The translations under genes were made by a program, and so were the position numbers. A DNA stretch of 25,541 nt, from IMG/VR virus record IMGVR_UViG_3300025872_000275, positions 1-25,541 of that record. The stretch is one strand, 5' to 3'. Below the pieces are notes generated by a model. That model was not told the origin of the DNA and did no database searches. It saw only the letters and a list, made by a program, of their open reading frames with translations. Each line of letters opens with the position of its first letter. The first letter of the stretch is position 1. The stretch comes from a virus. This document shows, piece after piece, positions 3,019 through 25,541 of the stretch.

Positions 3019-3594
3019 ATGTCGGGAACTGGCAGCGTTAACTACCAGCCCCTAATCCAGACAGCCGTAGGAGGCCAAATGGACATGACGCAAGAATACC
3101 TCAAGTCAATTCTTCACTACAACCCATTCACGGGTGTGTTTACGTGGAAGCCTCGTCCTGAGTCTATGTTCAACTCACTCAGAAACTGCAACGCATGGAA
3201 CGCCAGATATGCAAATGTAGTGGCTGGAACAAGAACAAAAAGAAACTACATAACTATTCAAATAAAACCAAAAGCGATTAAACAAGCCCACCGCTTGGCC
3301 TTTTTGTACATGATCGGAAGATGCCCAGATATTACCGACCATATCAACGGCGATAGCTCTGACAACAGATGGGCTAACCTGAGAGAAGCAACAATATCGG
3401 ATAATAGAAGAAATGCAGCAAAACATAAACATAATACATCCGGACACACAAATATAAGACAAGTATCTGGGAAGTGGCAGGTGGTCGTCTGTGAAAAATG
3501 GTTTGGCAGCTATAAGAATATCAACGATGCCATTATTGCTAGAGACCACGCCCGTGCTACTATCGGGGGGTTTACTAAGAGACATGGTATCTAA
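3019..3594 (+). CDS. HNH homing endonuclease between terminase subunits
   Basis: This 191-residue protein carries an HNH_3-type nuclease core (AHRLAFLYMIG, then DHINGDSSDNRWANLREAT, about residues 91-124). The core is followed by an AP2-like DNA-binding segment (TSGHTNIRQVSGKWQVVV, then SYKNINDAIIARDHARA). These proteins are site-specific nucleases that spread their own genes. Family members usually begin like MTQEYLKSILHYNP, which here starts at 3085. The ATG at 3079 has an ideal AGGAGG site, while ATG 3019 (also with AGGAGA) adds about 20 unrelated residues, so the start is uncertain. The TAATG at 3591-3595 joins its stop to the start of TerL. The gene is more A-rich than its neighbours, a sign of separate origin. 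Confidence 0.85.
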   Translation: MSGTGSVNYQPLIQTAVGGQMDMTQEYLKSILHYNPFTGVFTWKPRPESMFNSLRNCNAWNARYANVVAGTRTKRNYITIQIKPKAIKQAHRLAFLYMIGRCPDITDHINGDSSDNRWANLREATISDNRRNAAKHKHNTSGHTNIRQVSGKWQVVVCEKWFGSYKNINDAIIARDHARATIGGFTKRHGI

Positions 3595-4994
3595 TGGCAG
3601 AAGTTGTTTTCAATTACAAGCCACGAGCTTGGTGCATACCGTTTCACCAAAGGTCGCAGAGATACGCCCTCATGGTATGTCACCGCAGAAGCGGAAAAAC
3701 TGTGGCCTGCGTCAATGAACTCGTACTTCGTGGACTCTATACTAAAAAGAAAAATAGTCGCTACGCCTATGTTGCTCCATATCGACAACAAGCTAAGGAA
3801 ATCGCCTGGACCTACCTCAAGGAGGCGACTAAAGATATCCGAGTGGAACCTCCTAGAGAGTCTGAGTTGCGCGTCAAACTACCTAACGATGTATGGATCA
3901 CCCTGTATGGTGCAGATAACCCAGATTCCCTTCGAGGACTGTACTTTGACGGTATCATCCTTGACGAATTCGGAGACATGAAGCCCAGTCTAATGGGCGA
4001 GGTCATCACTCCCTGTCTTGCTGACCGGGAAGGCTGGCTGGCGATTATCGGTACGGCCAAGGGTCGAAACCAGTTCTACGAGTATAGAAGGAAGGCACAG
4101 AACTCTGAGGAATGGCACTACACCATGCTCAAGGCCAGTGAGTCGGGGATTATTCCGAAGAAGGAACTGGTCAACCTGAAGGAGATTATGTCCGAAAGCC
4201 AGTACGAACAGGAAATGGAATGTAGCTTCGAGGCGGCACTACTGGGGACGTATTATGCCGAGACAATGAACGGTCTAAAAACAAAGGGGAGGATTATGAA
4301 TGAAACCCTCTATGAACCCGACCAGAAAGTTCATGTGGCAGCCGATGTTGGACTCCGAGACACGACAGCCTGGTGGTTCTGGCAACCCAGACCGGATGGG
4401 GTTGCGATTATCGACTGTCACGAAGCGTCTGGAAAACACGTTGAGTACTATCTCGAAATGCTTCATAACAAAGGCTATGACTATCACCAGATTTGGCTAC
4501 CCCACGACGCAAAGGCTAAAACGCTTGCAACGCGACGAAGCACGGTTGAGCAGTTTGCTACACCAAGTATTAGCCGACCTGATCTCTATTCAGAAGAAGA
4601 TCGACTCCCTATCCGAATCGTCCCAAAACTCGGTATCCAGCACGGTATCGACGCCGCCCGACTATTCCTCCAGAACTGCTACTTTGACCAAAAGAAATGT
4701 GATTTGGGTATCGACGCTCTCAGATCGTATCGTAGACAGTTCCATGAGCATACGGGGGCATTTTCTGACACTCCGCTACATGATTGGGCTAGTAATTTCG
4801 CGGATGCGTTCCGGTATATGGCTCTTGTGGCTGGTAAGTCAGTCGCGATGCCCACGGAAAAACCCCGAATGACAACCCTGCCAAATGCGAGTAATCTTGG
4901 TCAAAGAATAACCAACGGGTCAGGCTATTGCCTGGATGACCTATGGAAGCAGAGAGATAACGAGAGAAGAAATCTGAGGCCACTAAGAATATGA
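3594..4994 (+). CDS. terL: Terminase large subunit (packaging ATPase/nuclease)
   Basis: This 466-residue motor protein pumps DNA into the prohead and cuts concatemers. The N-terminal ATPase has Walker A HRRSGKT (residues 30-36), Walker B IILDEF with the catalytic Glu at 125, and a coupling motif GTAKG (153-157). The C-terminal RNase H-like nuclease shows acidic positions in AADVGLRDTTAW (Asp251, Asp256), LPHDAKAKT (Asp305) and HDWASNFADAFRY (Asp397, Asp404). The length is normal and all motifs are intact, so the neighbouring endonuclease has not broken it. ATG 3594 overlaps the upstream stop, and the TGA overlaps the next start at 4991. The motif order makes this one of the surest calls in the window. 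Confidence 0.95.
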   Translation: MAEVVFNYKPRAWCIPFHQRSQRYALMVCHRRSGKTVACVNELVLRGLYTKKKNSRYAYVAPYRQQAKEIAWTYLKEATKDIRVEPPRESELRVKLPNDVWITLYGADNPDSLRGLYFDGIILDEFGDMKPSLMGEVITPCLADREGWLAIIGTAKGRNQFYEYRRKAQNSEEWHYTMLKASESGIIPKKELVNLKEIMSESQYEQEMECSFEAALLGTYYAETMNGLKTKGRIMNETLYEPDQKVHVAADVGLRDTTAWWFWQPRPDGVAIIDCHEASGKHVEYYLEMLHNKGYDYHQIWLPHDAKAKTLATRRSTVEQFATPSISRPDLYSEEDRLPIRIVPKLGIQHGIDAARLFLQNCYFDQKKCDLGIDALRSYRRQFHEHTGAFSDTPLHDWASNFADAFRYMALVAGKSVAMPTEKPRMTTLPNASNLGQRITNGSGYCLDDLWKQRDNERRNLRPLRI

Positions 4995-5662
4995 GCAGAC
5001 TAATAGACAAGATTGTTATCCACTGTTCCGACTCCCCACAAGGACGAGGCGATAATGCCTCCACTATCCATAACTGGCACAAAGAGCGTGGATTCGATGG
5101 GCGAGCCTATGTATTCCCGACATGCAAGGTATGCGCTGTAGTTTATAGCCAGCAAAAGCGATTATATAACAAGGCGATACATAAGGACTTGTGCAAGGAA
5201 CACAGAAGAGCAAACCCATTAAACCCTGTTGATAAGCCTGTTAATTGTGTTGATTGCGGGGTAAGTGTTTGTCGTGGTCACGAACGATGTAAGCCATGCC
5301 ACGGAAAGCACAAAGCAAATCCTGTCAGGCTGTGTGAATGCGGAGCAGTATTAAGCCATAAGGCCAAGAAAAGTTGTTTAGCCTGTTGGAATAAAGAACA
5401 AGATAAAGGCTTAAGCAAAGAGAGGGTTAAATTTCAAAATTCGCATGAATGGACTTTGGCACGAAACGAGTGTTTCGAAAGAGACAACCACACATGCCAG
5501 CATTGTGATTCAAGAGGCGGGTACTTGGAAGCACACCACATCAAAGAGTGGGTGAATTATCCTAGCCTTAGATTAGAGATTTCAAATCTGTTAACACTCT
5601 GCCGCCCTTGTCATAGGGCTTATCACAAGCAATATGGGAGGCCAGCACGATGGGCCGCATAG
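4991..5662 (+). CDS. Amidase N-terminus fused to zinc-finger HNH endonuclease
   Basis: Residues 1-37 (MSRLIDKIVIHCSDSPQGRG through FDG) are the start of a T7-lysozyme-type amidase, including the first zinc ligand (His11). From residue 38 the protein becomes an endonuclease: treble or ribbon-like Cys clusters (C45/C48/C68/H71, C86/C89/C100/C103, C115/C117/C129/C132), then a canonical HNH domain (CQHC 169-172, AHHI 181-184, N199, CRPCH 204-208). The break comes just before the GYHYVI segment of the amidase. There is no Met or in-frame GTG after residue 1, so the nuclease is apparently made only as this fusion. Its last bases overlap the intact amidase at 5650. The insert is A/T-richer than its surroundings. 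It lacks intein end residues and leaves no room for an intron. Confidence 0.85.
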   Translation: MSRLIDKIVIHCSDSPQGRGDNASTIHNWHKERGFDGRAYVFPTCKVCAVVYSQQKRLYNKAIHKDLCKEHRRANPLNPVDKPVNCVDCGVSVCRGHERCKPCHGKHKANPVRLCECGAVLSHKAKKSCLACWNKEQDKGLSKERVKFQNSHEWTLARNECFERDNHTCQHCDSRGGYLEAHHIKEWVNYPSLRLEISNLLTLCRPCHRAYHKQYGRPARWAA

Positions 5663-6060
5663 CAAGGAAAATTGATAAAATCATCATCCATTGCTCGGAT
5701 TCACCTCAAGGTCGCGGGGATGATGCTAGTACAATACATGATTGGCATGTTAACGGAAACGGATGGGTAGGTATTGGTTATCACTACGTTATCCTCGAAA
5801 ACGGCAAAAGACAGGCAGGACGACCAGAATACTGGATAGGCTCCCACGTCAAAGACCATAACGCAGACTCCATTGGTATATGCCTGATTGGTAGGGACTC
5901 TTTCACCGACGAACAGAACGGTGAACTGGTAATTCTCATCAGGGAACTATTAACCCGATACCCCGCTGCAAACATACTCGGTCATTATGAACTCGATTCT
6001 GGCAAGACCTGCCCTAATTTCAACGTCCCGGCGTGGCGAGCGGAGCATGGATTGCTATGA
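5650..6060 (+). CDS. N-acetylmuramoyl-L-alanine amidase (T7 lysozyme-like endolysin)
   Basis: This 136-residue enzyme cuts the amide bond between muramic acid and the peptide in peptidoglycan to release progeny. The T7-lysozyme (amidase_2) pattern is complete: zinc ligands His14 (IIIHCSDSP), His112 (ILGHYELD) and Cys121 (KTCPNF), catalytic Tyr44 (GIGYHYVI) and Lys119. SHVKDHNADSIGICLIG (65-81) is typical of the family. It lacks a signal peptide, so release needs a holin. Its start lies inside the fusion gene, with GGGAGG upstream as ribosome site. Its N-terminal 30 residues repeat the fragment at 4991 at protein level but with mostly different codons. T7-type members can also inhibit phage RNA polymerase; nothing here shows that. 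Confidence 0.9.
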   Translation: MGRIARKIDKIIIHCSDSPQGRGDDASTIHDWHVNGNGWVGIGYHYVILENGKRQAGRPEYWIGSHVKDHNADSIGICLIGRDSFTDEQNGELVILIRELLTRYPAANILGHYELDSGKTCPNFNVPAWRAEHGLL

Positions 6061-11056: not shown

Positions 11057-12064
11057 ATGAGCAAAAAAGCAGCGGTAATCGAAGAAAACGAAGGAGAAGT
11101 TGTCTATGACGACCCCTCCCCCACAGCAGACCTTAATGCCGCCTGGGATGCAGCAGAGTCCAGTGAGCCAGAGCCTGACGCCGGAGGAGAGGGAGAGGCT
11201 GATACTCCACTTGAGCCTGAGCCTGAACCTATCGTCGCCGAAGAAGGCACCGAACCCCAGGAGGACGTTAAGGAGCCTGAACCTGTTGAGGACAAAATCC
11301 CCGCAGGACTGACCCCTGCCTTACGGGAGGAGTGGAAGAAAACCCCCAAAGCCCTCCAAGAGTGGGCGACCAAGCGGGAAAAGGACTATGCGATAGGGCT
11401 ACAGAAACACGCTGAAAACGCCAATCGTGCTACCCAGATGGACAGGGTACTCGCACCCTTCTTACCTTATATGCAGATGAACGGTGGACTCAAAGCCGTC
11501 CCTGAAACCCTCCAAACCGCTATGACCCTCCAAATGGGCAGTCCCAGACAGAGGGCTGAGGCCGCAGCAGCCATTATCCAGCAGTACGGCGTGGATATTA
11601 ACATGCTTGATAGCCTGCTATCAGGACAAACAGTACAAGAACAGGCCCCTCAGCTATCAGAGCGTGAACAGCGGATTGAGCAGTTCCTCCAACAACAGGA
11701 ACAGCAACAGAAATGGCAGGCAGAGCAAGCCCAGTTACAGGTAAACAGCGGGGTCCAAGCCTTTATCAACAACCCAAAGAACGAGTTTGCCAATGACGTT
11801 CGGGACGATATGGCCGATTTGCTGGAAATGGCGAGCCGAAGAAATATCCCCATGACCCTGGATCAGGCGTATGACCGTGCCTGTAGGATGAACCCTGAAA
11901 TCTCACGGATACTCCAGACCCGAAGTGGGCAGAAGCACGTCCAAACCAACCGTAGGGCAGCTTCCAGTATCCACGGTAGCCCTAGTGGCTCGGTTATGTC
12001 CAACAGTACTGATGACATATCAAAACTGTTAAATGATGCATGGGATAGGGCTGGACAAGTGTAA
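11057..12064 (+). CDS. Scaffolding (capsid assembly) protein, 335 aa
   Basis: Between portal and major capsid genes, this protein has the composition of an internal scaffold. It has a very acidic, Pro/Glu-rich N-terminus (about 1-90, with EPEPEPIVAEEGTEP), a short conserved-looking LTPALREEWKKTPKALQEWATKREKD region (about 94-120, described by position only), a helical Gln-rich coiled coil (EQRIEQFLQQQEQQQKWQ, about 204-221) and a basic, likely coat-binding C-terminal part with TRSGQKHVQTNRRAASS. Such proteins direct capsid shell growth and leave before DNA fills the head. ATG 11057 follows CCAAGGAATGTACC. Its stop codon lies inside a small hairpin. Confidence 0.75.
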   Translation: MSKKAAVIEENEGEVVYDDPSPTADLNAAWDAAESSEPEPDAGGEGEADTPLEPEPEPIVAEEGTEPQEDVKEPEPVEDKIPAGLTPALREEWKKTPKALQEWATKREKDYAIGLQKHAENANRATQMDRVLAPFLPYMQMNGGLKAVPETLQTAMTLQMGSPRQRAEAAAAIIQQYGVDINMLDSLLSGQTVQEQAPQLSEREQRIEQFLQQQEQQQKWQAEQAQLQVNSGVQAFINNPKNEFANDVRDDMADLLEMASRRNIPMTLDQAYDRACRMNPEISRILQTRSGQKHVQTNRRAASSIHGSPSGSVMSNSTDDISKLLNDAWDRAGQV

Positions 12065-12075
12065 AAAAACACTTG
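12056..12075 (+). other. Hairpin across scaffold stop codon
   Basis: CAAGTGT (12056-12062) pairs perfectly with ACACTTG (12069-12075) around an A6 loop, with the TAA stop (12062-12064) inside. There is no following T-run on the plus strand, so it is not a classic rightward terminator. It may protect or process the mRNA between scaffold and capsid. Confidence 0.4.
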
Positions 12076-12097
12076 CACAATAGAAAAAAGGGCGTAA

Positions 12098-12111
12098 AGT
12101 TAATATTAACT
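12098..12111. promoter_or_regulatory. 14-bp perfect palindrome before capsid gene
   Basis: AGTTAATATTAACT is a perfect 14-base palindrome in the 152-base leader of the major capsid gene. It may be a binding site for a dimeric regulator. No standard -35/-10 pair was found at the right distance, so a promoter claim is not made. Confidence 0.3.
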
Positions 12112-12216
12112 AAGTTCTCCCCAGTCTCCGACAGGCGAATGAGTTAAAGGGAAGGTTGTTTAGCCCCATCCCGTGGATGCAGGTAAATCAATTAAACTTT
12201 AGCTTAAGGAGGCCAC

Positions 12217-13906
12217 ATGGCATTCGCTAACGCAAATTACTCAGATATTTTGGCAACGACTATAGAATCTCGTAGTCGTAAAGTTGCTGACAACGTTTAA
12301 TTTGAGGACGTTATAAAACTTTGTGAAATCGGTGAACGCTGAGATGCCAATACCGAGCCAAGCCGTAAAAGTGATGAGTTACGGAAGGTGTAACGACTAG
12401 GAGGACGCGAAAGCCGACTCCCACGAGCGCAAAGAACCACTATCACCCACAGAGGAGTATTCCGAATGGTGACAATCTACAAACTATATTGCATCGACAC
12501 CCAACAAGCGTATATCGGGTGTACTAAAGGCAAGCTAGGCAAAAGGATGCGTGAGCACCGATGCCTGCTTAACGGCAATAAGCATACTGCGAGAACTATG
12601 CAGGAGCTTTGGAACATATTGGGTTCCAGTGCGTTCAGGTTAGAAAGCATTGAAACATTGCCAAAAGATGCCACCACCATAGACAAACGGAAACGTGAAA
12701 TCTTCTGGATGGAGCATTTTGAAAAGCAGGGATTACTGCTGAATGATAGTAAAATATCGTTTCAGCCACCGCACGAAGCACCGGCCAAAGCAGCAGCCGC
12801 AAGAGTAGCAAACGGGTATCGACCGTCTGCTGATAGCAATGAAAAGCGTAGATTGGCGCAGGTTGGTATCCCGAAAGGGCATGGCGCAAAGATAAGCGCA
12901 ACCAAGCAAGCGAAAAAGTGGTTATGAGATAGTCTGCTCTGCATCGAATTGAAGATGCAGGAGCCTCGGATAAAGAGCCGAGGACGTAAACAGAAGGACA
13001 AAGAACAACGCAATCCTGACCAAACTCTCCCAGAGGGGCAAGATCAAGCCTTTCAGCGGTGGTTCTCAGATTATCCAGGAACTGTCCTTTGCTGAGAACA
13101 GCAACGGCGGATGGTATTCTGGTTACGACATTCTGCCGGTGGGTGTATCTGATGTTATCAGTGCGGCTAATTTCAGCATCAAGCAATTGGCCGTTCCTGT
13201 CATCATCTCCGGTCTGGAAATGCTCCAGAACGCTGGTCGTGAGCGCATGATTGACCTGATGGAATCTCGCCTGTCTGTAGCCGAGTCCACTATGTCAAAT
13301 CTGCTCTGCGATGGTCTGTACTCAAACGGTTCAGGCTCAGGCGGTAAGGAAATTGATGGTCTGGATGCGGCAGTCCCCGTGGCTAACACTGCTGGTACAT
13401 ACGGTGGTATTACCCGTGCAGCCTCTGGCATTACTGCGTTCTGGTCTAACCAAGTGAGCGATCAAACCTCTGCAAACGGCTTGGACGCTACCAAAATCCA
13501 AGGTTACTGGAACGCACTGTGGGCCAAGTGTACCCGTGGTACTGACCGTGTTGACCTGATTATGGCTGATAGCACTGTTTGGGCTGCTTACATGGCTTCA
13601 CTGCAAGCCCTCCAGCGGTTTGCACAGCCTGAAGTCGGCAACCTGGGCTTTCCAAGCCTGAAGTTCATGGATGCTGATGTATGTCTGGACGGTGGAATCG
13701 GTGGTTCCTGCCCCGCAGGTACAGCGTTCTTCCTGAACACCAACTACATCCACTTCCGTCCTCATGCCTCACGCAACATGGTGCCTTTGGCTCCTAACAA
13801 GCGTTATGCAACCAACCAGGATGCTGAAGTGCAGATATTGGGATGGGCAGGAAACCTGACGTGTTCCAATGCGAGCTTGCAGGGTCGCTTTGACGCTAAC
13901 GGCTAA
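12217..13906 (+). CDS. Major capsid protein, split by group I intron (exons 12217-12297, 12998-13906)
   Basis: Exon 1 (12217-12297) encodes 27 residues beginning MAFANANYSDILATTIESRS and ending VADNV; an in-frame TAA follows at once in the intron. Exon 2 (12998-13906) resumes in frame with TKNNAILTKLSQRGKIKPFSG. The joined 329-residue product has the landmarks of a podovirus-type coat protein: GGSQIIQELSFAEN, GWYSGYDILPV, SDVISAANFSIKQ, SGLEMLQNAGRERMIDLMES, QGYWNALWAKCTRG, MADVCL-like GFPSLKFMDADVCLDGGIGG, and NQDAEVQILGWAGN near the end. It is presumed to have the HK97 fold and to build the shell. AAGGAGG sits six bases before ATG 12217. Without splicing only 27 residues would be made, so expression depends on the intron. 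Confidence 0.88.
12298..12997 (+). ncRNA. Group I self-splicing intron in capsid gene
   Basis: The 700-base intron has group I hallmarks. P1: exon AACGTT (12292-12297) pairs with GACGTT (12307-12312), putting the last exon U opposite G12307, the required U-G wobble at the 5' splice site. P7: GACTA (12395-12399) with TAGTC (12930-12934), in core-like contexts (GGTGTAACGACTAGG and ATGAGATAGTCTGC). The upstream GAGATGCCAATACCGAGCC resembles the core P-region of phage introns. Near the 3' end are hairpins TGCATC/GATGCA (12940-12959) and CCTCGG/CCGAGG (12964-12983). The intron ends in G12997, and CAAA at the start of exon 2 can pair with TTTG (12301-12304) as P10. The ORF lies between the P7 strands. 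Confidence 0.88.
12466..12927 (+). CDS. GIY-YIG homing endonuclease encoded in the intron
   Basis: This 153-residue protein begins MVTIYKLYCIDTQQAYIGCT, a GIY-YIG catalytic start (IYKLYC...YIGCT) followed by KRMREHRCLL with the expected Arg and His. The C-terminal part is basic and includes a repeat-like DNA-binding region (SADSNEKRRLAQVGIPKGHG, about 121-140) as in NUMOD-type nuclease modules. It would cut intronless copies of the capsid gene and so spread the intron. GAGGAG lies about eight bases before the ATG. The TGA stop sits directly before the P7 3' strand, showing close packing of ORF and ribozyme. Confidence 0.88.
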   Translation: MVTIYKLYCIDTQQAYIGCTKGKLGKRMREHRCLLNGNKHTARTMQELWNILGSSAFRLESIETLPKDATTIDKRKREIFWMEHFEKQGLLLNDSKISFQPPHEAPAKAAAARVANGYRPSADSNEKRRLAQVGIPKGHGAKISATKQAKKWL

Positions 13907-22408: not shown

Positions 22409-23107
22409 ATGTTAGAAGCAACGTATGAGGAATCACGGATGGCATTGGGGAGAGGGCAGAGCAACGGGGATGAATTCCTTGCTGTGCGCTTTTACATGGA
22501 TGCCAAGTTGAACACCCAAAAGACGGAGTTGGAAGGTCGCCCTATTTACGACGATGTGCCGTGGATTGAGATCATGCAGCCTGGGAACAAGAACACAGTG
22601 GTGGTTCGTCCCGCTAATGAGAGGGACAAACAACGGTTCCCTACCCACTGGAGACTGTGGAAGGAAAGGACTTCTGAGGAAGAAGTTATCTCTGGTACTC
22701 GTTTGACAGATTGGCCGGGAGTTACCCGTGGTCAGGTAGAGGAACTGTCCTTTTTCAACATCAAGACCGTGGAACAGTTGGCGAATATGGCTGACTCCAA
22801 CACAGGTGCTATGATGGGCCTTGTAACACTGAAGGAAAAGGCTAAGAAGTACCTCGGAGTTGCCAAGGAAGCAGCAACGGCTGATGCACTGGAAGCCGCT
22901 AACCGCCGTATTGACGAACTGATGGCGCTGGTTCAGGATAAAGGGGCTGTTGTGGATAACCCTGTGGATAATGTTCCACGTGGCGTGTCAGAAGTAGACC
23001 CTGTGGAACAGGTATTGGCCCATATTGCGGAAGGAAACCCCAATCCTCCACCGAAGAAGAAGCGCCATCGACGCACCAAGGCAGAAATAGAGGCCGCAAA
23101 AGGCTGA
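22409..23107 (+). CDS. Phage structural-type protein with basic tail, 232 aa
   Basis: AAAGGAGTGCAGCGGA precedes ATG 22409. The N-terminal part contains FLAVRFYMDAKLNTQKTELE and VPWIEIMQPGNKNTVVVRPA (about 23-69), then ERDKQRFPTHWRLWKE. A helix-hairpin-helix-like stretch follows (WPGVTRGQVEELSFFNIKTV, about 102-121), then a coiled coil and a lysine/arginine-rich tail (PPPKKKRHRRTKAEIEAAKG). I recognise this layout from unnamed proteins near head-tail genes of podovirus-like phages. The HhH-like and basic parts suggest contact with DNA or neck parts. The function is not established. Confidence 0.6.
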   Translation: MLEATYEESRMALGRGQSNGDEFLAVRFYMDAKLNTQKTELEGRPIYDDVPWIEIMQPGNKNTVVVRPANERDKQRFPTHWRLWKERTSEEEVISGTRLTDWPGVTRGQVEELSFFNIKTVEQLANMADSNTGAMMGLVTLKEKAKKYLGVAKEAATADALEAANRRIDELMALVQDKGAVVDNPVDNVPRGVSEVDPVEQVLAHIAEGNPNPPPKKKRHRRTKAEIEAAKG

Positions 23108-23119
23108 TAGGAGTATGAA

Positions 23120-23842
23120 ATGGCTCGACAGGAAACAGCTTCTACCATAATCAACGATACGGCTATTGAAGTCGGGCTTATTCCTGTCATAGACCCTTAT
23201 TCCTCCCAAGATGCTGCGTTTCAACAACTTGCTGGCCTGCTCAATGCGGCGGGTCGTGAGTTGGTGGATATGTACCCTTGGGAGACCATGCAAAGACAGC
23301 ATACTATCGTCACGGCCCCAGGGGATACAGGTAGTTACGCTCTCCCCACTGACTTTCACCACATGATCGGGCAGACTGGTTGGAATCAGTCGGCTAGGAT
23401 GCCTATAGGGGGTCCGTTGTCCTCCCAGATGTGGGCATATGCCAATGCACTGGATTTGGGGGCTACTACCCTGCAAGTCTCCTTCATCCTTAACGAAAAC
23501 AAGTTTGTGGTCTATCCTTCCCCTCCTCCCGAAGGTATCACCATCAGCTTCTCCTATATCAGCCGTAACTGGGTGAAACAGACAGATAATACCTATACAG
23601 ACAGGGCTTCAACGGGTACGGATACCATCCTGTTCGAGCCGATACTGGTGGTGAAGTTCTTAAAGGTAAAGTTTCTTGCTGCGAAGGGTTTCGACATTGC
23701 TGTAGCTGCAAGAGACTTTGATCTCTGCTACTCTAGTTGGACAGGGTACGATAAAGGCGCTCCTATCCTGTCTCTAAACGGCAGAAGCGGATTTCGTTAT
23801 CTAACCGGCAATTCAGTGCCAGAAAGTGGATTCGGCTTATGA
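23120..23842 (+). CDS. Head-tail adaptor (P22 gp4/T7 gp11-like), 240 aa
   Basis: ATG 23120 follows ATAGGAGTATGAA. The N-terminal helical part (TASTIINDTAIEVGLIPVID, QQLAGLLNAAGRELVDMYPW) and the beta-rich remainder (SYALPTDFHHMIGQTGWNQS, NKFVVYPSPPPEGITISFSY, then ISRNWVK) match the pattern of adaptor/tail-tubular proteins that sit under the portal and seal packaged DNA. It precedes a nozzle-like gene, the usual order for short-tailed phages. Its TGA (23840-23842) overlaps the ATG of that gene at 23839. The antisense endonuclease frame runs into its 3' end. Confidence 0.65.
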   Translation: MARQETASTIINDTAIEVGLIPVIDPYSSQDAAFQQLAGLLNAAGRELVDMYPWETMQRQHTIVTAPGDTGSYALPTDFHHMIGQTGWNQSARMPIGGPLSSQMWAYANALDLGATTLQVSFILNENKFVVYPSPPPEGITISFSYISRNWVKQTDNTYTDRASTGTDTILFEPILVVKFLKVKFLAAKGFDIAVAARDFDLCYSSWTGYDKGAPILSLNGRSGFRYLTGNSVPESGFGL

Positions 23843-24489
23843 GCACGTACTTTAACAGGCGTGGTAATAATTTTAGGGTCATCCCACCCAATGGCTCTGC
23901 GGCGGTAGAGTATACTTCTATTAAGCCCAAGCTTTATGGCCCACTGAGTCGCGGTCAGAGTTTCTCCATCATAGGTAAAATATCTAGAGTTCTTTCTCAA
24001 TCTTCTATTATTAGCCTGCTCTTTTTTAGTGGCCCATCGACAGTTCTCTTTGCTGTAGTTTCCGTCGTTGTCGATACGGTCAATGGTCATTCCTTCGGGG
24101 GCTTCTCCCATGTCGGCAAGGAAATTCTCAAATACAGCCCAACGCGGGTCGTATGTGATGCCTCTAGCCCCGTAATCGTCGTAAGCCGCATCTTTCGGAT
24201 TATCACATCTCTGTCTAAGGTGCTTCCATACACTATGAATAGTTGTTCTGCTTTTGCCGTGCGTAGTAAACCGCGTTTTCGCAGTAGCTCTGCTACTCTT
24301 ACATCCACAGCTAATGGAGCCTCTATTTATATTAGTTCGAGCCACTTCTTTACGAGTTCCACACTCACATTCGCACAGGTCGTAAGGATGCCGTCCCCTA
24401 CTTTTAGCTGGCTCAATGATTTTCCACATAGCGCTATTACCATATTGATGTCTAATAGGAGTATAGCTCATTCGCTTTAGAAATGCCAT
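23797..24489 (-). CDS. HNH homing endonuclease, antisense, inserted in tail gene
   Basis: On the minus strand, this 230-residue frame (or 224 from the second Met at 24471, MSYTPIRHQYGNS) has a Cys cluster (CECECG...SISCGC, about 39-63). It is followed by an HNH core of the GIY/NUMOD-associated phage type: SVWKHLRQRCDNPKDAAYDD, YGARGITYDPRW, MTIDRIDNDGNYSKENCRWA and ATKKEQANNRR. A helix-turn-helix-like end follows (TATQWAIKLGLNRSILYRRR) and then GWDDPKIITTPV, the usual end of this family. The remaining residues read into the antisense of the tail gene start and the adaptor gene. No strong Shine-Dalgarno sequence is seen and the promoter is unknown. It is oriented against all its neighbours. 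Confidence 0.85.
   Translation of the reverse strand: MAFLKRMSYTPIRHQYGNSAMWKIIEPAKSRGRHPYDLCECECGTRKEVARTNINRGSISCGCKSSRATAKTRFTTHGKSRTTIHSVWKHLRQRCDNPKDAAYDDYGARGITYDPRWAVFENFLADMGEAPEGMTIDRIDNDGNYSKENCRWATKKEQANNRRLRKNSRYFTYDGETLTATQWAIKLGLNRSILYRRRAIGWDDPKIITTPVKVRAHKPNPLSGTELPVR
23839..23876 (+). pseudogene. Displaced 5' end of the nozzle gene
   Basis: ATG 23839 overlaps the adaptor stop in the usual coupled way and reads MSTYFNRRGNNFR before entering the antisense endonuclease. The 3' fragment resumes in frame after 24475 at TTT AGA AAT GCC. TTTAG occurs at 23872-23876 and 24476-24480, and CTTTA at 23850-23854 and 24475-24479. Joining at either repeat restores one frame. So this fragment is probably the original start, separated by about 600-625 bases of insert. 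Confidence 0.6.
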
Positions 24490-25541
24490 TACTAAGGGTG
24501 GGCGTTATCAACAAAGTGCGCCCTACCAACAAAGCTATACAGTTCCAGCAAGCGTTGGCGGTATCAATGCGCTAGATTCATTAAGCGCAATGGAACCTAC
24601 CGATTGTATTGTCGCGCAAAATTTAATACCCAGTGAATATGGGTTAAGACTCCGCAAGGGCTACAGGAACTGGGCAACGGGCATGACAGGTGGGGCTGTG
24701 AACACGGTTATCGCCTTCACAGGACAGAAAGACGCTGCAACAGGCAAGAAGCTGTGGGCAGTCACTCCAGGGGGCATATTTGACTGTACAACTGATGGTG
24801 TGACCTCTCCAACCAAGGTCGTAACCTTTGTAGGCGTGGGTACAGGGGCTGGATTTGGGGTCTACACGGAGATCACCAATGATGCCGGTGGGAGATACCT
24901 GTTCTATGCCGATGAAGTCAATGGACTTCATATGTACACAGAAGCCTCAGCAACGTGGAGTATCCCCTCAATTACGGTGGCTACCCCTGCCAATGTCGCC
25001 TATTGCATGGTGTGGAAGGGCAGGCTGTGGATGATCCTGAAGGACTCAGGGGACGCCTACTACCTTGATGTAGGGGCCATATCGGGTGCGGCTACCCTGT
25101 TCAACTTTGGGGCCAAGCTCAGTCACGGGGGTTCGCTGAAGGCCATGTTCAACTGGACTATCGACGGCGGAGCAGGGGTGGATGACTACCTCATCGCTGT
25201 GGGTGGTGGTGGGGATGTATTGATCTACCAAGGCACTGACCCTACCCAGGCAGATAGTTTTGGCCTTGTGGGTAGTTGGTTTATCGGCTCCTGTCCTGCT
25301 TCGAGGCGTATTGGACTGGCTTACGGGGGGGAAATGTACCTCCTGTCTACCTATGGGGTTATCAGTGTCCGTCAGTTAATGGAGGGTATTCAGGTAGCCG
25401 ACCCCGCCAATGGACCTAGCGCCAAAATCAACCGCTTCCTCCGTGAGGCGGTACAGGAGGGTATCACATCCCATGTCTGGTCTATGGCTATCTACCCTGG
25501 CGATGGGTTCATGCAGATCATTGCTCCCTTTGACTCTGCCA
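24467..25541 (+). CDS. Tail nozzle/packaged-DNA stabilisation-like protein, 5' disrupted, 3' beyond window
   Basis: The frame is open from 24467 to the window end. It reads NAITKGGRYQQSAPYQQSYT, then VPASVGGINALDSLSAMEPT, the typical beginning of nozzle/stabilisation proteins (P22 gp10/T7 gp12-like), and RLRKGYRNWATG. The rest is rich in Gly and aromatic blade-like repeats (KLWAVTPGGIFDCTTDG, RYLFYADEVNGLHMYTE, RLWMILKDSGDAYYLD), consistent with a beta-propeller-like nozzle. No ATG/GTG/TTG precedes the conserved start: the first Met is at 24590, inside it. AGGAG (24456-24460) lies eight bases upstream of an ATT at 24470. The real 5' end is probably at 23839, separated by the inserted endonuclease. 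Confidence 0.7.

Follow-up and report, generated by a model that had tools for sequence, protein, structure and literature searches.

The right end of the viral contig analyzed here (the window, 25,541 bases in full) carries a tail adaptor gene, a minus-strand HNH frame and the 5′ part of a nozzle gene, and it raises the question of how the last of these could be translated. The nozzle frame, which is preceded by a TAG, is open from 24467 to 25541, and the first ATG, GTG or TTG encountered within it is ATG 24590. An earlier note on this DNA had recognized the absence of a canonical start codon near the nozzle N-terminus and the presence of an intact HNH gene lying antisense between the adaptor and nozzle genes (minus-strand ORF 23797-24489), and both observations hold. 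It had also read the nozzle gene as split into two exons, and this part of its account does not withstand comparison with relatives. The features of the region are as follows.

23120..23842, plus strand: tail adaptor (gp11-like) gene, matching Pfam SU10_adaptor (2e-10) and phrog_6013 (1.8e-37) and ending ..GFGL TGA.
23797..24471, minus strand: HNH homing endonuclease gene, matching phrog_374 (3.9e-58) and phrog_3377 (2.9e-50), its start placed by means of the homologue L036.
23839..24480, plus strand: 213-codon ORF "MSTYF..", which runs antisense along the conserved HNH frame and is not itself a gene.
23843..24472, no strand assigned: presumed inserted segment of ~620-630 bp, absent in L002, L003, L087-L097 and Mx8/Mx9, its limits following those of HNH homology.
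24457..24461, plus strand: AGGAG, Shine-Dalgarno-like, 8 nt before ATT 24470.
24470..24472, plus strand: ATT, the presumed nozzle start codon, occupying the position of the relatives' ATG.
24470..25541, plus strand: nozzle (gp12-like, tail tube B) gene, matching phrog_5107 (2e-56), free of stops and cut on its 3′ side by the contig end.

Relatives for comparison came from a protein scan of viral contigs, which yielded L002 (75-77% identity) and L003 (61%), and from a profile scan, which contributed L087 (52%) plus ten contigs less closely related, among them that of Myxococcus phage Mx8. No HNH gene lies at the adaptor/nozzle junction in any relative in which this junction is readable; in L002, L003, L087 and others the two genes abut, and in most relatives the adaptor stop and the nozzle ATG after it either overlap (TAATG, TGATG, ATGA) or are a few bases apart. 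In L002, L003 and L087 this ATG is positioned exactly 25 residues upstream of a conserved PAS motif, and the same distance in the window leads to ATT 24470, one of only two ATT, ATC or ATA codons ahead of the motif in the nozzle frame (the other is ATT 24488). The N-termini of the window, L002 and L003 align without gaps (IRFRNAITKGGRYQQSAP, MRYRSTQTKGGRHVQSAP and MRYNSQTTRGGRF, respectively). The codons that follow ATT 24470, CGC TTT, specify R-F where the relatives have R-Y (N-termini MRYRS.. and MRYN..), and at the DNA level the start of the window gene (ATTCGCTTTA) is identical to that of L003 (ATGCGCTATA) at 8 of 10 bases (binomial p 0.0004). Because the relatives' start aligns gaplessly with ATT 24470, the nozzle gene is unsplit, with an intact N-terminus. 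The two-exon interpretation thus fails at its own proposed point of comparison, since HNH-free relatives begin the nozzle protein at the equivalent of 24470 and possess no separate MSTYF-like piece. Nor is there any nozzle coding sequence to the left of the insert, as would be found in a gene divided by a homing endonuclease gene. A start at ATG 24590 was rejected, as it would forfeit the conserved PASVGGIN stretch. A search of viral contigs for another record of the genome or the site came back empty, as did a genome-collection scan for nozzle relatives. The nozzle family bears the name "amidase" in phrog_5107 and in several records, a label that looks like an error carried between annotations.

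The element separating the two tail genes can be delimited from its own homologues. The HNH protein is of the phrog_374/phrog_3377 type and is 43% identical to L036 over 216 residues, with homology spanning the full gene. The N-terminus of L036, MSRTNPIGQHFG..WTVIEPA, pairs one to one with MSYTPIRHQYGNSAMWKIIEPA in the window, and since the L036 start is in register, the HNH start is placed at ATG 24471; judged by the same homologue, ATG 24489 is the less likely choice. At the other end, homologues terminate in ..TTPVR or ..TTPI, for which the window equivalent is K213 (23851-23853), and homology fades at about residue 211-215. The HNH codons past ~23850 continue into the adaptor gene, the original stop of the HNH gene having apparently been lost. 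The adaptor C-terminus, GFG(L/Q) plus stop, is the same in L002 and Mx8, and the TGA constitutes the final native bases on the left of the insert. The edges of the insert are approximate, probably falling within 23843-23854 on the left and 24469-24472 on the right, and the HNH gene occupies nearly all of it (~23850-24471), with at most ~10 unassigned bases at the left edge. Terminator and promoter signals within the insert do not rise above those in shuffled sequences. By family membership and absence from relatives, the HNH gene is a free-standing homing endonuclease gene, its homing being a prediction.

The antisense placement of such a nuclease had been considered rare, a view that its own family contradicts. 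Under a crude ORF rule, approximately 13 of the 80 HNH relatives fetched have ORFs of opposite orientation on both sides, and several lie beside virion genes; among nine loci listed, six (L011, L015, L055, L062, L063 and L075) have the HNH gene tightly packed between large opposite ORFs. A neighbor gave a PHROG match at five antisense loci, four of these being virion or DNA-ejection families: DNA ejection (L062), major head (L015), lytic tail or transglycosylase (L055) and, weakly, tail protein (L063); the neighbor in L011 belongs to a large unknown family. Antisense HNH genes beside virion genes are therefore recurrent in this family, and the tight packing may be a habit of it. Elsewhere in the contig, an HNH_3 gene (3019-3594) resides between the presumed small and large terminase genes, its TAA overlapping the terminase ATG (TAATG); coupling is kept there, unlike at the nozzle gene. 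Another HNH gene (4991-5662) precedes an amidase gene (5650-6060), and its first ~42 residues copy the amidase N-terminus (63% over 43 residues), as if the HNH gene had landed in the amidase gene and a full copy had been restored behind it.

AUU starts are very rare, and the case for one at 24470 draws on several features of its surroundings. A conserved N-terminus begins at the ATT, a Shine-Dalgarno sequence precedes it and no canonical in-frame start is nearby, a combination characteristic of AUU-initiated genes. Only seven of the 405 ATT triplets in the window (1.7%), ATT 24470 among them, have a Shine-Dalgarno 5-mer at a distance of 5-10 nt. Read on the opposite strand, the AGGAG at 24457-24461 falls in the HNH codons for Y-T-P-I, and the ATT shares 24470-24471 with the HNH start codon. 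The 10-mer ATAGGAGTAT occurs just twice in the window, at 23107 before the adaptor gene and at 24455 before the nozzle ATT. The energy of the Shine-Dalgarno duplex (-6.8) is middling for the contig, and RNA folding in the start region is unremarkable (z -0.06). Initiation behind AGGAG at ATT 24470 was among several options raised previously, and it is the one best supported by position and Shine-Dalgarno sequence, while the actual use of AUU is presumed. In Staphylococcus aureus, cvfC1 starts at AUU with a strong, extended Shine-Dalgarno sequence, and non-canonical starts there reach ~10% of AUG activity (PMC13009471); in a cell-free system, the AUU/CAU pairing is among those disfavored once IF3 is raised (PMC10158994). 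Our reading of the locus is that an HNH gene inserted in antisense at the adaptor stop and nozzle start and that the nozzle is most likely initiated at AUU; with both AUU use and the contig base taken as presumptions, we consider this account probable.

Two alternatives accept the insertion and differ on what became of the start codon. In the first, position 24472 is really a G, so that the nozzle gene has an ordinary ATG, and the ATT comes from a mistake in sequencing or assembly or from a minor variant. The ATG of relatives occupies exactly this position, CATG would provide a start codon on each strand and so serve both genes, and in the one contig available a single T-for-G change at 24472 would suffice; an error rate of ~1e-4 per base would also, by our estimate, give this alternative the same prior probability as natural initiation at AUU. 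No frame-breaking error, however, was seen in the ORFs examined, and we regard a miscalled base as unlikely, though deserving of real weight. In the second, the nozzle gene is not expressed at all, the contig deriving from a defective phage or prophage in which the HNH insertion disabled a tail gene. The missing canonical start and the vanished coupling to the adaptor would fit such an outcome, but the gene retains 357 codons without a stop or frameshift, its dN relative to L002 (0.22) is far below its dS (2.8), the Shine-Dalgarno sequence is in place and other virion genes are open. The nozzle region is evidently under purifying selection, as indicated by these substitution rates, a signal that is not datable relative to the insertion. 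We therefore think a dead gene distinctly unlikely. Base 24472 decides between AUU and AUG.

That the intervening sequence is removed from the RNA, so that MSTYF is joined to RNAITKGG, is far harder to sustain. CTTTA is present at 23850 and 24475, as is an ATGA overlap at 23839, and the CTTTA repeats do allow a frame-preserving join. The repeats previously taken to mark the two junctions (CTTTA/TTTAG) are thus real, but their significance is not, given that a 5-mer common to both junctions arises in 11% of shuffles with 15-nt windows and in 49% with 30-nt windows. The HNH coding sequence accounts for both ends of the insert. The MSTYF "exon" itself was rejected, because its letters are those of the adaptor-stop ATGA followed by the HNH 3′ end read in antisense, and no relative contains such an exon. 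Joining it would add two residues, MSTY replacing [M]R, and displace the conserved R-Y/R-F start, which is not the product expected of a group I intron; splicing at the repeats is likewise discounted by their chance-level occurrence and by the relatives' start at 24470. An Rfam search of 23700-24700 on both strands at E up to 5 matched no intron, which bears out the earlier doubt about an ordinary group I intron here. As a positive control, the same search finds the group I intron of the capsid gene in this contig (E 9.5e-6). We accordingly rate an unusual spliced element as very improbable. Scarcely credible, finally, is a +1 shift at CTT TAG A that would make the nozzle a fusion with the 213-codon antisense ORF: that reading frame (23839-24480) is open, but its openness is the shadow of the conserved HNH frame, the product would carry some 200 residues unlike any relative, and by eye no frameshift signal accompanies CTT TAG A.

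The group I intron of the capsid gene (12217-13906) contains a GIY-YIG gene. The RF00028 match (12254-12960, within a searched region of 12000-13250) scores 31 bits, below the curated cut-off. A join of 12217-12297 to 12998-13906 takes out 700 bases; the exon then ends in U and the intron in G, and the rebuilt MAFANANYSDILATTIESRSRKVADNVTKNNA.. agrees with L102, which lacks the intron.

Returning to AUU initiation after an antisense insertion, the following sequence of events can be envisaged. A free-standing HNH gene would have inserted in antisense exactly at the adaptor/nozzle stop/start junction, leaving the nozzle coding sequence untouched from its second codon onward. The stop/start overlap would have disappeared with the insertion, and with it the translational coupling that this overlap presumably provides in relatives, because the insertion parts the adaptor and nozzle genes by ~630 bases. 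An ATT would have been left in place of the ATG with AGGAG at a good distance; both the AGGAG and the AT of the ATT are complementary to the opening codons of the HNH gene. Translation would then most likely begin at AUU with formyl-methionine, at a reduced rate, on a late transcript running through the HNH region. The best reading is that nozzle initiation at AUU would be weak but real. More tentatively, the antisense of the homing gene's first codons may serve the displaced gene as a substitute ribosome-binding site and as most of its start codon, such that an essential virion protein is AUU-started, at a level that is reduced or coupled to IF3. The usual view is that free-standing homing genes persist by landing where harm is small. 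In this instance the landing point is a start codon, and the 5′ end of the nuclease gene, read backwards, seems to supply the signals that its neighbor lost; if true, this would clearly exemplify an element that softens the harm done by its own insertion, as well as a virion gene with a rare AUU start. In automatic gene calling, the nozzle gene here would come out truncated or split.

Comparison with known systems places each component of this arrangement. Among AUU-initiated genes is Escherichia coli infC. E. coli pcnB is another, according to work cited in PMC13009471, and S. aureus cvfC1 a third (PMC13009471). The window has in common with such genes an ATT with a Shine-Dalgarno sequence, no other start and a conserved N-terminus beginning at the ATT. 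Unlike these three, which are cellular genes with conserved or regulatory AUU use, the window offers a virion gene in a single phage contig.

The nuclear rDNA group I introns of protists can carry an antisense homing gene. The window shares with them an endonuclease frame opposite to that of the interrupted gene, but it contains no intron RNA, and the nuclease gene fills the insert.

Free-standing homing endonuclease genes of T4-like phages, located in gene junctions or intergenic sites, must fit the expression signals of their host (PMC2988022). Such genes can also truly split others, as do mobE in nrdA of Aeromonas phage Aeh1 and mobA in T4 gene 60/39 (PMC2988022). As in those two cases, the homing gene of the window adjoins an essential phage gene (PMC2988022), but there the host gene is made as two polypeptides, whereas the nozzle coding sequence is whole. 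The closer likeness is to mobE between nrdA and nrdB and to mobA-mobD, since here too an HNH gene occupies a junction in a compact operon and is absent from near relatives (PMC2988022). The window HNH gene differs from these in being antisense and in touching the downstream start codon, and its cleavage and homing are predicted. The window case is thus of the T4-like junction kind, in antisense orientation and with a start-codon twist added.
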